From the NCBI GenBank assembly GCA_944386495.1, contig CALXBE010000008.1, positions 18,302 to 82,301 of the forward strand: DNA of 64,000 nucleotides, in the 5' to 3' direction. The notes beneath the pieces were generated by a model. That model had not been told where the DNA came from. It ran no database searches and saw only the letters and a list, made by a program, of their open reading frames with translations. The DNA comes from an uncultured Gemmiger sp. Its GTDB lineage: Bacteria; Bacillota; Clostridia; Oscillospirales; Ruminococcaceae. The stretch's first letter is position 1. The number at the start of each line of letters is the position of its first letter. A program made the position numbers and the translations under genes. This document shows, piece by piece, positions 29,399 to 38,272 of this stretch.

Positions 29399-29425
29399 TC
29401 TTTTTGGAAAAATCCAAAAAGGGTC

Positions 29426-29454
29426 TTGACTTTATTGGAATGAAGTGATATAAA
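29426..29454 (+). promoter_or_regulatory. Promoter of the T-box/trpXYZ operon
   Basis: TTGACT (29426-29431), 17-base spacer, TATAAA (29449-29454), with the start expected near 29461 where the T-box structure begins. Confidence 0.85.
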
Positions 29455-29460
29455 CTAGGT

Positions 29461-29732
29461 AAACCGATGAGGCGGAGATAAAACTGCAAGCGCACTCACA
29501 GAGAGCCCCGGCAGCTGGGAAGGGGCAGGAAGCGGAGCAGACAAATGGACCGCCGAGGGCAAGGCTGAACCGTAAGCAGTAAGCCGGGCCGGGAACTCCC
29601 GTTACAGAGTGGGGATGTGTTGGCATTCCGCAGAGTGGTCGGAGGAATAAACCTTCGGCAAACAAGGTGGCACCGCAGTGTAAGTATTTTACCCTGTCCT
29701 TGTACAAGAAATTGTACGAGGGCAGTTTTTTT
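29461..29732 (+). promoter_or_regulatory. T-box riboswitch, tRNA-Trp specific
   Basis: A leader of about 270 bases that senses uncharged tRNA. At the base of stem I, GGCGG/CCGCC and CTGC/GCAG enclose an internal loop whose 3' side is ACAAATGGA. The specifier there is UGG (29546-29548), the Trp codon. The T-box AAGGTGGCACCGCAG lies at 29664-29678. Its bulge UGGC (29668-29671) is complementary to a tRNA end GCCA, so it expects discriminator G73, usual for tRNA-Trp. The terminator is a 14-bp stem with loop GAAA (29694-29725) and T-run 29726-29732. Low charged tRNA-Trp should turn on trpXYZ. Confidence 0.93.
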
Positions 29733-29771
29733 ATTTCCCCCGTACCCGTGGAAAAGGAGGCGGATCCAGTT

Positions 29772-29873: not shown

Positions 29874-30914
29874 ATGATGAATAAAATGAAGAAACTGTTG
29901 GCTCTCACCCTGACCCTGGCCCTGGCGCTTTCCCTGGCCGCCTGCGGCGGTTCCGACACCTCCGCTGCGGGAGAGGACACCGCATCTCCCCAGGATGCCC
30001 AGTTTACCGTGGGCATTATCAACTATGTGGATGACCCCAGCCTGAACCAGATCCAGGCCGCCATTGAGGCCGAGCTGGCCGCCAATGACATCGCTTATGT
30101 CAGCCAGAATGCCCAGGCTGACCAGAGCACCATCACCACCATCGCCAACCAGATGATCGAGAGCGGGGTGGACCTGCTTATCCCCATTGCCACCCCCACC
30201 GCCATGGTGGTCCAGAACGCCACCTCCGAGAATCAGCTGCCGGTGGTGTTCGCCGCCGTTTCCGACCCGGTGGGCGCGGGGCTGGTGGCTTCCATGGATG
30301 CTCCCGGAGGGAACATTACCGGCTCCTCCGATGCTCTGGACACCGCCAACATCTTTAACCTGATCACTGCTCTCAACCCTGACCTGACCAAGGTTGGTCT
30401 GCTCTATGATGCTTCCCAGGATTCCAGCACCCTGGCCATTGAACACGCCAAGGAATTCCTGGATGCCAACAATATTGCCTATGTGGAAAAGACCGGCACC
30501 ACCACCGATGACCTGTCCCTGGCGGCCGACGCCCTCATTGCCGAGGGGGTAGAGGTGGTCTTTACTCCCACCGATAACACCGTTCAGGTGGCCGAGCCCG
30601 CCCTTTACCAGAAGTTCATTGATGCCGGGGTCCAGCACTACTGCGGCGCTGACTCCTTCGCCCTGGTAGGCGCCTTCTGTGGCTACGGCGTGGACTACGA
30701 GAACCTGGGCACCATGACCGGAAAGATGGCGGTAAAGATTCTGGTGGGGGGCGCTGACCCTGCCGCTACTCCCATTGAGACCTTCGACAACGGCAAGGCT
30801 TCCATCAACACCGATACCTGCGCCGCCCTGGGCCTGGACTTTGAGGAAGTTTCTTCCACCCTGGAACCTCTCTGCACCATGGTAGAGGGGCTGACCACCA
30901 GCGACTCCTTCTAA
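29874..30914 (+). CDS. trpX: Tryptophan ABC transporter substrate-binding lipoprotein
   Basis: A 346-residue ABC substrate-binding protein (TrpX type). The signal peptide ends in lipobox LAAC with Cys24, then a Ser/Thr/Gly linker. The mature part has two Rossmann-like lobes, starting VGIINYVDDPSLNQI, with VVFAAVSDPVGAGLV in the hinge region. The tryptophan substrate is inferred from the UGG specifier of the upstream T-box and the trpXYZ gene order. GAGG lies 9 bases before the first of two ATGs. Confidence 0.88.
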   Translation: MMNKMKKLLALTLTLALALSLAACGGSDTSAAGEDTASPQDAQFTVGIINYVDDPSLNQIQAAIEAELAANDIAYVSQNAQADQSTITTIANQMIESGVDLLIPIATPTAMVVQNATSENQLPVVFAAVSDPVGAGLVASMDAPGGNITGSSDALDTANIFNLITALNPDLTKVGLLYDASQDSSTLAIEHAKEFLDANNIAYVEKTGTTTDDLSLAADALIAEGVEVVFTPTDNTVQVAEPALYQKFIDAGVQHYCGADSFALVGAFCGYGVDYENLGTMTGKMAVKILVGGADPAATPIETFDNGKASINTDTCAALGLDFEEVSSTLEPLCTMVEGLTTSDSF

Positions 30915-36378: not shown

Positions 36379-37392
36379 TTAGTTCAGGGTTTTCCCGAAG
36401 AATCCCAGCTGGGCTTTCAAATCACCCATGAGATTGTCGAACTGGTCGGGGGTAAGGCTCTGGGCGCCGTCGCAGAGGGCATGGGCCGGGTCATTGTGGA
36501 CTTCGATCATGAGGCCGTCGGCTCCCACCGCCACAGCGGCTTTGGCCAGAGGCTCCACCATCCAGGCAATTCCGGCGGCATGGCTGGGGTCGATGATGAC
36601 CGGGAGATGGGTCATCTTTTTCAGCATGGGAATGGCGGAAATGTCCAGGGTGTTCCGCATGCTGGTCTCAAAGGTTCGGATTCCCCGCTCACAGAGAACC
36701 ACATTCTCGTTTCCTTCCGCCATGATGTATTCGGCGCTCATGACCAGCTCTTCCAGGGTGGAACAGAGCCCCCGCTTGAGCAGGACCGGAGTTTTGGTCC
36801 GGCCTACCGCTTTCAGCAGTTCAAAGTTCTGCATGTTCCGGGCGCCGATTTGAATCATGTCTACCTTCTCAAAGAGGGGGAGATGTTCGGTGTTCATCAG
36901 CTCGGTGACCACAGGCTGACCGGTTTTCCCGGCGGCCTCAAGCAGCAAGTCCAGCCCTTCGCTCCGCAGACCCTGGAAGCTGTAAGGGGAGGTGCGGGGC
37001 TTGAAGGCGCCGCCCCGGAGGATGGAAGCTCCCGCAGCCTTTACTCGCTGGGCTACCAGTTCCATCTGCTGGGGACTCTCAATGCTGCAGGGGCCTGCCA
37101 TGACGGCAAAGTTGCCGCCTCCGATTTTCACATCCCCTACCTGGACTACCGTGTCATCCGGATGGAACTTCCGGTTGGCTTTCTTGTAAGGTTCACTGAT
37201 CCGCCGGCAGGTCTCCACCGCGGGGTGCGCCAGAATCCAACTCTCAGCAATGGCTTTGGTATCACCCACCAGCCCCAGAATATGGGCATCGGTACCGTTG
37301 GAGTCGTGAATCTCCAGTCCGCGGGAGCGCAGTTCTCCGCACAGCTGGTCGATCATGCTCTGGGAAACATTTTTTTTCAAAATTACAATCAT
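36379..37392 (-). CDS. aroF: 3-deoxy-7-phosphoheptulonate synthase (DAHP synthase, type I beta)
   Basis: A 337-residue first enzyme of the shikimate pathway, condensing phosphoenolpyruvate with erythrose 4-phosphate. Residues 1 to about 70 form the ferredoxin-like regulatory domain (MIVILKKNVSQSMIDQLCGE), the rest the catalytic barrel with MAGPCSIES, ILRGGAFKPRTSPYSFQG and DPSHAAG. The ATG at 37392 has GAGG about 10 bases before it; a TTG three codons upstream is less likely. It is preceded by a Phe/Tyr-rich leader peptide and a terminator hairpin, so transcription is probably attenuated by aromatic amino acid supply. Confidence 0.95.
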   Translation of the reverse strand: MIVILKKNVSQSMIDQLCGELRSRGLEIHDSNGTDAHILGLVGDTKAIAESWILAHPAVETCRRISEPYKKANRKFHPDDTVVQVGDVKIGGGNFAVMAGPCSIESPQQMELVAQRVKAAGASILRGGAFKPRTSPYSFQGLRSEGLDLLLEAAGKTGQPVVTELMNTEHLPLFEKVDMIQIGARNMQNFELLKAVGRTKTPVLLKRGLCSTLEELVMSAEYIMAEGNENVVLCERGIRTFETSMRNTLDISAIPMLKKMTHLPVIIDPSHAAGIAWMVEPLAKAAVAVGADGLMIEVHNDPAHALCDGAQSLTPDQFDNLMGDLKAQLGFFGKTLN

Positions 37393-37437
37393 GGCAAGCA
37401 ACCTCTTTCCGTTTTATGGTGTCTGTATAAATAAGAA

Positions 37438-37463
37438 GGGCCTGCGGCAGGTGCCGCAGGCCC
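37438..37463 (-). terminator. Attenuator hairpin upstream of aroF
   Basis: GGGCCTGCGGC (37438-37448) pairs perfectly with GCCGCAGGCCC (37453-37463), loop of four. On the minus strand it is followed by TTCTTATTT. It lies 27 bases after the leader-peptide stop and 46 bases before aroF. Confidence 0.8.
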
Positions 37464-37489
37464 GGAAAAACAATGGAGAAAGGGTCCTG

Positions 37490-37588
37490 TTAACCCAATC
37501 GCTCCGCCCGGTTGCAGCACAAAAAGCTCTTGCCATAAAAATAGCAAAAGCAATAGCCGAAATAGAAAGCTGCAAAGAGAACGGCCAT
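37490..37588 (-). CDS. aroF leader peptide, Phe/Tyr rich (32 aa)
   Basis: A 32-codon ORF with an AAGGAG ribosome site 8 bases before its ATG. The sequence begins MAVLFAAFYFGYCFCYFYGK and contains six Phe and four Tyr, nine of them within residues 5-18. It lies 36 bases downstream of a strong promoter, followed by a terminator hairpin and then aroF. This is the textbook layout of ribosome-mediated attenuation, as for pheA or tyrosine-sensitive aroF in Proteobacteria: slow translation at Phe/Tyr codons would prevent termination. An alternative antiterminator pairing was not established by eye. Confidence 0.85.
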   Translation of the reverse strand: MAVLFAAFYFGYCFCYFYGKSFLCCNRAERLG

Positions 37589-37623
37589 GGTGAAAACTCC
37601 TTCTGGAAATCCTTGATGTGGGT

Positions 37624-37652
37624 AGTATAGCGCTTTAAAGCGACGAAGTCAA
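37624..37652 (-). promoter_or_regulatory. Promoter of the aroF leader transcript
   Basis: On the minus strand TTGACT (37647-37652), 17-base spacer, TATACT (37624-37629). The spacer holds the perfect palindrome CGCTTTAAAGCG (37631-37642), a possible operator. Confidence 0.85.
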
Positions 37653-37713
37653 CCCCTGAAAGGCGGAAAATGAGAAAATTCTGTAAAATTTTCCCAAAGG
37701 AAGAAAATGGGTT

Positions 37714-37777: not shown

Positions 37778-38272
37778 ATGGGAAAACAAAACAAGACCAA
37801 TGCCATTCGGCTGTTGGATACTCAGAAAGTGGCATACAAAATTCACGAGTATGACCACGACGACGGAGCCATTGACGGGGTAAGCGTGGCGGCCAAACTG
37901 GGCCAGGACCCCCGGGCTGTCTTCAAGACCCTGGTGACCAAGCCAGCCGGAAAGAACAGCTGCTGTGTCTTTGTCATCCCGGTAGGGGCGGAGCTGGACC
38001 TGAAGAAAGCCGCCCGGGCCGTGAAGGAAAAGAGCGTTTCCATGCTCCATTTGGTGGACCTGACCAAGTATACCGGCTATGTCCGGGGGGGATGCAGCCC
38101 CCTGGGAATGAAGAAACAGTATCCCACCGTTTTTGATGAAAGCTGCCTGGAATGGCCTGCCATCTGTGTATCGGGAGGGAGAATCGGGACCCAGATCGAA
38201 GCGGACCCCCGGGATCTGATCCGTCTTTCCCGGGCTTCCACCGCACCCTTGACGGCGGAGGGCGAAGGATGA
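37778..38272 (+). CDS. ybaK: Cys-tRNA(Pro) deacylase YbaK/EbsC
   Basis: A 164-residue trans-editing enzyme that hydrolyses cysteine mischarged on tRNA-Pro. It starts KTNAIRLLDTQKVAYKIHEY; the conserved Lys lies in FKTLVTK, and GGCSPLGMKKQYPTVFDE is the YbaK loop. Length is standard. The rsuA start overlaps its stop (ATGA), so both RNA-modifying proteins are coupled in one operon. Confidence 0.93.
   Translation: MGKQNKTNAIRLLDTQKVAYKIHEYDHDDGAIDGVSVAAKLGQDPRAVFKTLVTKPAGKNSCCVFVIPVGAELDLKKAARAVKEKSVSMLHLVDLTKYTGYVRGGCSPLGMKKQYPTVFDESCLEWPAICVSGGRIGTQIEADPRDLIRLSRASTAPLTAEGEG

Follow-up and report, generated by a model that had tools for sequence, protein, structure and literature searches.

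A Predicted Phe/Tyr Leader-Peptide Attenuator Ahead of the DAHP Synthase Gene aroF in Clostridia

Introduction

Textbooks present leader-peptide attenuation as a device of Proteobacteria, whereas Firmicutes are usually taught as users of T-boxes and TRAP. The trp, phe, and his attenuators of E. coli combine a translated leader containing codons for the pathway end product with a pause hairpin situated within those codons, an antiterminator and a terminator. The T-box senses uncharged tRNA, binding the tRNA directly and without a leader ORF.

As a rule, the view that Firmicutes usually rely on T-boxes, which was also taken in the original prediction for the locus described here, is fair; however, leader-peptide attenuators for histidine and leucine have already been published from Firmicutes (PMC2965389; PMC9413887; PMC5794164), and a uORF with at least one Phe codon has been proposed ahead of aroF in Acholeplasma (PMC8632094). 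According to the relevant parts of these reports, the histidine examples comprise the leader peptides of Bacillus hisS*/hisZ together with candidate attenuators in the B. cereus group, Eubacteriales, and Erysipelotrichales (PMC2965389; PMC9413887). The published system nearest to the leader considered here is the uORFC-13-1 motif, as described from 24 representatives in Acholeplasma and environmental sequences (PMC8632094). No Phe/Tyr leader before aroF in Clostridia is described in the titles and abstracts found in the open-access PubMed Central literature.

The sequence analyzed, referred to below as the window, is a stretch of 64,000 nucleotides from an uncultured Gemmiger sp., the source assembly of which amounts to 1.89 Mb and is 81% complete. 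The nearest named relatives are labeled uncultured Clostridia, Oscillospiraceae, Gemmiger, and Faecalibacterium.

Materials and Methods

The first set of relatives consisted of 115 loci, from which L001 and L002 were dropped (they represent the same place as L003) and identical ones merged, to give 100 upstreams; subtraction of L006–L008, which belong to a second DAHP synthase, left 97 distinct aroF upstreams. The class-level sample drew on 293 genomes of the window's class, 205 of them with a matching protein. From the matches listed, which include rows for a second copy in the same genome among those beyond the sample, 109 were examined (29 newly returned and 80 fetched). A leader ORF was scored by a rule demanding 10–50 codons, an SD-like start, and at least five Phe or Tyr in 12 residues; the rule was fixed after the first leaders had been seen, and the class-level set was collected later. 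Rfam scans of relatives covered 38 distinct first-set loci and 20 of 29 phylum-level loci.

In the permutation test, pairing energies within species were compared with those obtained when the strands were dealt out among species, using one leader per 70%-identity cluster. This was done for 28 clusters of the first set and for 39 from the class-level set, none of which exceeded 70% identity to the first. Pair conservation was counted on alignment A2, a MAFFT alignment of 15 of the 47 first-set leaders, all from close relatives. Ribosome position was modeled with a 13-base footprint beginning at the first base of the A site, and only the RNA ahead of the ribosome was folded; the read-out was the number of pairs between the terminator arm and upstream bases, the mean pairing of the terminator 5′ arm being masked by local pairs.

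Results

Organization of the aroF Leader

Promoter, leader ORF, hairpin, and aroF all lie on the minus strand, as read from the window sequence (Table 1). The original prediction named a TTGACT-17-TATACT promoter and a good ribosome site, which are present base for base, and a 32-codon ORF with Phe or Tyr at nine of residues 5–18 (six Phe and four Tyr overall), which is correct on translation: Phe occupies positions 5, 8, 10, 14, 17, and 22 and Tyr positions 9, 12, 16, and 18, while four codons specify Cys. The perfect 11-bp terminator-like hairpin said to precede aroF is likewise there, as GGGCCTGCGGC-ACCT-GCCGCAGGCCC at 37463-37438 with 11/11 pairs; the U tract behind it, TTCTTATTTAT, is interrupted. 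The leader as a whole (37434-37618) folds at −71.8 kcal/mol, compared with −53.6 ± 3.8 for shuffled sequences, none of 200 of which folded as well.

Table 1. Features of the aroF locus in the window.
Feature	Position	Strand	Details	Basis
sigma-70-type promoter TTGACT-17-TATACT	37624..37652	-	-35 at 37652-37647, 17-base spacer, -10 at 37629-37624	
leader ribosome binding site AAGGAG	37597..37602	-	8 bases ahead of ATG 37588	
leader ORF MAVLFAAFYFGYCFCYFYGKSFLCCNRAERLG	37490..37588	-	32 codons plus stop	recurs in 47 of 97 distinct aroF upstreams
region 1 UUUGCAGC	37569..37576	-	codons Phe5-Ala6-Ala7; partner of region 2	full-length folds, pair counts, cross-species permutation
hairpin P1	37526..37551	-	11 bp, then UUUUUG; candidate pause hairpin	folds, permutations, pair counts
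region 2 GUGCUGCA	37513..37520	-	last part of codon 23 through codon 26; 5′ strand of the antiterminator	fold, pair counts, permutations
region 3 UGCGGCAC	37451..37458	-	terminator 5′ arm end plus two loop bases; antiterminator 3′ strand	fold, pair counts
intrinsic terminator	37427..37463	-	11-bp stem, ACCT loop, U-rich tail	sequence, fold
aroF	36379..37392	-	3-deoxy-7-phosphoheptulonate (DAHP) synthase, 337 aa	NCBIfam and Pfam
ybaK-like gene	37778-38272	+	YbaK-type Cys-tRNA(Pro) deacylase; divergent from aroF	NCBIfam

The aroF product contains the Pfam domains PF00793 and PF18152, corresponds to PRK08673/TIGR01361 in NCBIfam, and has a ferredoxin-like N-terminal part. Because the ybaK-like neighbor runs divergently, the hairpin is ruled out as the terminator of an upstream gene, and aroF is the sole owner of promoter, leader, and terminator. 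The genus also has another DAHP synthase (L006, L007, and L008), which shows 58% identity and has no Phe/Tyr leader by the ORF rule; in L007 it adjoins genes of the shikimate pathway, as judged by eye.

Alternative Pairings and Their Conservation

Folding had been proposed as a way to look for a mutually exclusive antiterminator, and such an alternative pairing is predicted in the window. When the RNA is truncated before the terminator 3′ arm, GUGCUGCA (codons 23–26) pairs with UGCGGCAC, and the pairing continues from region 2 into CCGGG at 37511-37507, which pairs with CCGG. In full-length RNA, UUGCAGC (codons 5–7) pairs with GCUGCAA of region 2, and the terminator forms. The 5′ arm of P1 sits within the Phe/Tyr cluster itself, at codons 13–16 (Cys-Phe-Cys-Tyr).

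Taken alone, the complementarity in the window is unexceptional relative to within-species shuffles, 46 of 200 being as good for regions 2 and 3 and 20 of 200 for regions 1 and 2. Ten or fewer of 200 shuffles did as well in 23 of the 47 leaders for the former pairing and in 16 for the latter. The evidence from comparison between species is strong. With the reservation that the z values may be inflated by differences in G+C between species, region 2 × region 3 energies were species-matched at z −6.5 in the 28 clusters and −11.3 in the 39, those of P1 at −8.6 and −8.8, and those of region 1 × region 2 at −6.3 and −11.7, with none of 5000 permutations as good in any of these tests. A species' own region 2/3 partner fell within the best tenth in 12 of 28 and 22 of 39 clusters. 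A control restricted to the terminator 5′ arm yielded z −0.7 for the first set and z −3.9 for the second, which indicates that much of the pairing signal involves the terminator loop, where the constraint of the terminator stem does not apply. The original prediction had regarded the lack of an alternative pairing in any homolog as fatal to it; the pairing is found in the window and is species-matched among relatives.

On alignment A2, standard pairs occupied 88.1% of the cells of P1 plus antiterminator, and slid versions reached at most 51.2%. Both sides had changed in 13 cells, a number equaled in none of 500 shuffles; pairs with a double change (4; 273/500 shuffles) and further pair types (15; 197/500 shuffles) were no higher than in shuffled alignments. 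The region 1:2 pairing was kept in 81.9% of cells (at most 65.7% when slid), and its double changes (4 cells) were matched by 87 of 500 shuffles. The terminator stem appeared as only 53.3% paired, its stems being out of register in the MAFFT alignment.

Modeled Ribosome Position

In the window, the model gave 9.8–9.9 expected antiterminator pairs for stalls up to codon 19, then 7.9 at codon 20, 3.8 at 21, 2.0 at 22, and 0.4 at 23, reaching 0.1 at the stop codon. Two features count against an attenuator: the modeled pairing climbs again to 6.3–8.8 at codons 27–29, through another local pairing, and a ribosome stalled at Phe22 would cover region 2. Over 68 clusters, the modeled median was 12.4 antiterminator pairs for a stall on the last Phe/Tyr codon versus 4.3 for a ribosome at the stop codon; the drop was at least 3 in 57 of the 68, while 10 stayed within 3 and one was reversed.

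Distribution of the Leader

A Phe/Tyr-rich leader ORF accompanied by a terminator-like hairpin was found in 47 of the 97 distinct aroF upstreams of the first set. The hairpin alone occurred in 9/97 and neither element in 41/97, results that count against an attenuator; none of the 97 had the ORF without the hairpin. One of the nine hairpin-only upstreams contains a T-box (L095) and two (L096 and L101) have a Phe/Tyr-rich frame by eye that misses the SD rule, as does that of L106, which has neither element by rule; the other six are explained in neither way. Co-variation of Phe/Tyr codons and hairpin among aroF leaders had been proposed as a check: 47 upstreams have both and none the ORF alone, nine have the hairpin alone, and in the class-level set 8 of 68 ORFs come without a detected hairpin. 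Retention of the hairpin after loss of the ORF, named at the outset as evidence against attenuation, could apply to the six unexplained cases; of the 50 upstreams without a leader, 41 have neither element.

The background of the ORF rule is low, with 35 of 1940 dinucleotide-shuffled upstreams passing, as did one of 344 upstreams of other long frames, the latter being mechanically called ORFs of at least 150 aa in named loci rather than verified genes. That one is a pheA leader in a relative, L079, where MIRRELTTAYFGFTFQGFYYSAGDLC and a terminator (L079:1402-1483) head a prephenate dehydratase gene (PF00800, 3.4e-60) followed by aroF in a pheA-aroF operon. When other residue pairs were put through the same rule, Phe plus Tyr gave the most ORFs (47); Ala plus Tyr gave 45, a count that agrees with the Ala codons of region 1.

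At class level, 68 of the 109 aroF loci examined have the Phe/Tyr ORF, 60 of these with the hairpin and 8 with none detected; 19 have the hairpin only and 22 neither. In the phylum-level sample, ORF and hairpin were found together in 8 of 29 loci (one positive, L230, being the same place as class-level L150, and another, L256, doubtful by eye), the hairpin only in 8, and neither in 13, so that the ORF was missing from 21. Phe/Tyr-rich ORFs turn up again and again, in 28 + 40 leader clusters with no more than 70% identity between any two, and outside close relatives the leaders are too unlike one another for a covariance model. Several class-level leaders (L138, L142, L177, L205, L207, and others) carry a Trp codon in or beside the Phe/Tyr run, as in FSWGYYY of L177, and some versions may therefore sense all three aromatic amino acids.

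T-Boxes and Other RNA Families

Rfam returned three weak hits at E ≤ 1 for 37380-37700, of which the best scores 23.3 bits (E 0.016) where 58.8 would be required. Neither a T-box (RF00230) nor another known riboswitch is among them, which rules these out at the locus, and the amino acid leader families of Rfam, which are of proteobacterial types, are likewise not among the three. In the leader-bearing loci scanned, no Rfam leader family matches the Phe/Tyr leader. The 38 distinct first-set loci include one, L095, with a T-box directly before aroF.

T-boxes were also seen on the same strand about 0.9 kb (L239:347-590) and about 0.5 kb (L245:749-1020) upstream of aroF in two phylum-level loci that lack the Phe/Tyr leader by rule. 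Elsewhere in the window, at 29425-29760 on the plus strand, a promoter contains ACTTTATTGGAATGAAGT (29429-29446), a palindrome of the HisR/TrpR type without mismatches. Downstream come a T-box at 29458-29704 (77.2 bits with E 4e-17, short of Rfam's gathering score of 93) and a gene for a TrpX-like ABC transporter at 29874-30914 (NF041285, 218 bits, under the cut-off of 390). This leader would appear to combine a repressor-type operator with a tRNA sensor.

Probable Leader Loss and a TrpR/HisR-Like Palindrome

In an AroF tree of 100 rows, the leader-less members in the part of the tree that holds the window's AroF form three groups, each with 100/100 support and with leader-bearing neighbors: a Gemmiger-like group of 17 rows, a Faecalibacterium-like group of 9, and the L012 group of 4. 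Some forks between these groups are weaker (84/80, 91/89, and 93/87), and three separate losses of the leader are likely, not proven, on this tree. The ORF is missing from all 30, and by rule so is a hairpin from 27; the three hairpins seen are in L022 at −152, L044 at −144, and L021 at −123, those of L021 and L022 sitting upstream of the promoter box. Gemmiger formicilis (L041) is one relative without the leader, and Gemmiger sp. An50 (L059) is one that carries it.

The palindrome ACTTYA-N6-TRAAGT, with at most one mismatch, is present upstream of aroF in 28 of the 30 leader-less relatives versus 0.2% of mononucleotide shuffles, and by eye 28 of the 30 have TTGACTTYA, in which the first half-site is fused to the −35 box. 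It agrees with the consensus cacTTTAnnnnnnTAAAgtg given for HisR, a member of the TrpR family, in PMC9413887. The promoter in the window holds a degenerate copy with two mismatches (37649-37632). Copies with two mismatches also occur in the leader-bearing neighbors L036, L037, L010, and L038, and one with a single mismatch in leader-bearing L009, while the nine leader-bearing relatives of the Fournierella/An50 type have no copy as close as one mismatch. The remaining 52 upstreams include 6 that have the palindrome with at most one mismatch (0.8% of shuffles), several of them leader-bearing. Since some leader-bearing relatives have both, palindrome and leader are not strictly exclusive.

The source genome contains one TrpR-family gene in its 81% complete assembly, at G000 C9:11519-11767. 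A search of this genome found two perfect palindromes versus one place for a reversed control pattern, a count not above chance. Besides the copy at 29429-29446, the perfect one found (L227:1501-1518, equivalent to G000 C14:7947-7964) sits immediately ahead of a gene resembling hisZ by eye, which is what would be expected of HisR.

Discussion

The leader ahead of aroF has the make-up of a trp-type attenuator, namely a short translatable ORF with clustered codons for the end products of the pathway, an intrinsic terminator between this ORF and the structural gene, and, computationally, an antiterminator mutually exclusive with the terminator. These parts, the mutually exclusive pairings, and their conservation rest on sequence and computation, and the comparative tests argue for a real, conserved leader-peptide attenuator. 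With high confidence, we regard the element as a ribosome-mediated transcription attenuator that ties expression of aroF to the charging of tRNA-Phe and tRNA-Tyr.

The course of stalling, pausing, and termination, and with it the sense in which aroF responds, is our inference and would be as follows. A ribosome would begin the leader ORF while RNA polymerase moves on, P1 possibly acting as the pause hairpin. If Phe- or Tyr-tRNA were scarce, the ribosome would stall on codons 8–18; early stalls would mask region 1 and later ones open P1, and in all of them region 2 would be left free to pair with region 3 (the terminator 5′ arm and loop), allowing read-through into aroF. With Phe and Tyr plentiful, the ribosome would translate through region 2 as far as the stop codon; that region, either covered or paired with region 1, would be unavailable, so that the 3:4 terminator could form and transcription would stop. 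The four Cys codons might add a response to cysteine.

Among other explanations, the one that fares best is a variant of the same device in which the region 1:2 pairing is unneeded; here the 2:3 pairing would block the terminator unless a translating ribosome covered region 2, and untranslated RNA would be read through. Consistent with such occlusion, ribosome-free RNA truncated before the terminator 3′ arm folds P1 and the antiterminator together (−55.2) and not region 1:2, and in 43 of 67 clusters, versus 36% in shuffles, region 2 starts 10–32 bases after the first base of the codon that ends the Phe/Tyr run. Nevertheless, region 1:2 is kept at 81.9% in the 15 close relatives, is species-matched in both permutation sets, and is present in the full-length fold. 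Several leaders with a stop close behind the Phe/Tyr run, moreover, have a region 2 that begins 0–14 bases past the stop, and coverage by a terminating ribosome would be only partial in these. We judge the occlusion variant unlikely, though it deserves to be kept in mind.

The leader ORF could instead encode a functional small membrane-like aromatic peptide, the hairpin being the ordinary terminator of its own mRNA. Its 32 codons, good ribosome site, and many hydrophobic residues would suit such a role, but beyond the Phe/Tyr cluster the peptides vary widely by eye, and both the Cys-Cys that follows this cluster and the Ala that precedes it fall in pairing strands in the 15 close relatives. 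Such an ORF was also found at just 1 of 344 upstreams of other long frames, where it heads pheA-aroF. We consider an independent peptide very improbable. The leader peptide matched no known small-protein family in NCBIfam or PHROGs. Least probable, by a slight further step, is another RNA element (a T-box, metabolite riboswitch, or protein-binding leader) with incidental Phe/Tyr codons, for although L095 has a T-box before aroF and another gene of the window a T-box-like leader below the gathering score, no Rfam family reaches threshold in 37380-37700 and Phe/Tyr-rich ORFs are recurrent in 28 + 40 clusters.

In Clostridia, aromatic amino acid synthesis would appear to be commonly controlled by leader-peptide attenuation, the ORF having been found in 68 of the 109 class-level loci examined. 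The distribution of the palindrome may reflect an exchange of RNA attenuation for repression in the leader-less groups. On a wider view, the Phe/Tyr leader attenuator may be an undescribed ancestral control of DAHP synthase in the class Clostridia, for which single lineages substituted other controls, L095 a T-box and the Gemmiger, Faecalibacterium, and L012 groups an operator of the TrpR/HisR family within the aroF promoter; the genus of the window, having the attenuator and a degenerate operator, would then resemble an intermediate of such a swap. We offer this history tentatively, at somewhat short of even confidence. Attenuator and operator may simply coexist, because the palindrome with at most one mismatch also occurs in L009 and in 6 of the 52 other upstreams, several of them leader-bearing. 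Close relatives that have no leader and carry a repressor-type palindrome represent a natural experiment on the replacement of regulatory logic at a single gene.

Comparison With Known Systems

The uORFC-13-1 motif resembles the window leader in that a candidate uORF, containing one or more Phe codons, precedes aroF and is immediately followed by a terminator stem, and attenuation has been proposed for it; compared by description, it differs in that the published account of the motif gives no Phe/Tyr-rich run, antiterminator, or clostridial members (PMC8632094). As far as their reports describe them, the histidine leaders of Firmicutes are, like the window leader, leader-peptide attenuators predicted by comparison, but they concern histidine, other genes, and few lineages (PMC2965389; PMC9413887). 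The leucine-rich attenuator peptide of S. aureus ilv-leu is described as a Firmicute leader attenuator with experimental support and differs in its amino acid, leucine, and in serving a branched-chain operon (PMC5794164). The T-box (RF00230), which stands before aroF in L095, was not detected by Rfam at the window locus.

With the trp, phe, and his attenuators of E. coli, the window leader appears to share end-product codons, a pause hairpin within the codons, an antiterminator, and a terminator. Unlike them, it belongs to another phylum, places a predicted mixed Phe and Tyr sensor before an enzyme of the common pathway, includes part of the terminator loop in region 3, and matches no Rfam leader family. 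The mechanism is apparently of a known kind, and by taxon and gene the leader would be an undescribed, widespread clostridial member of it.
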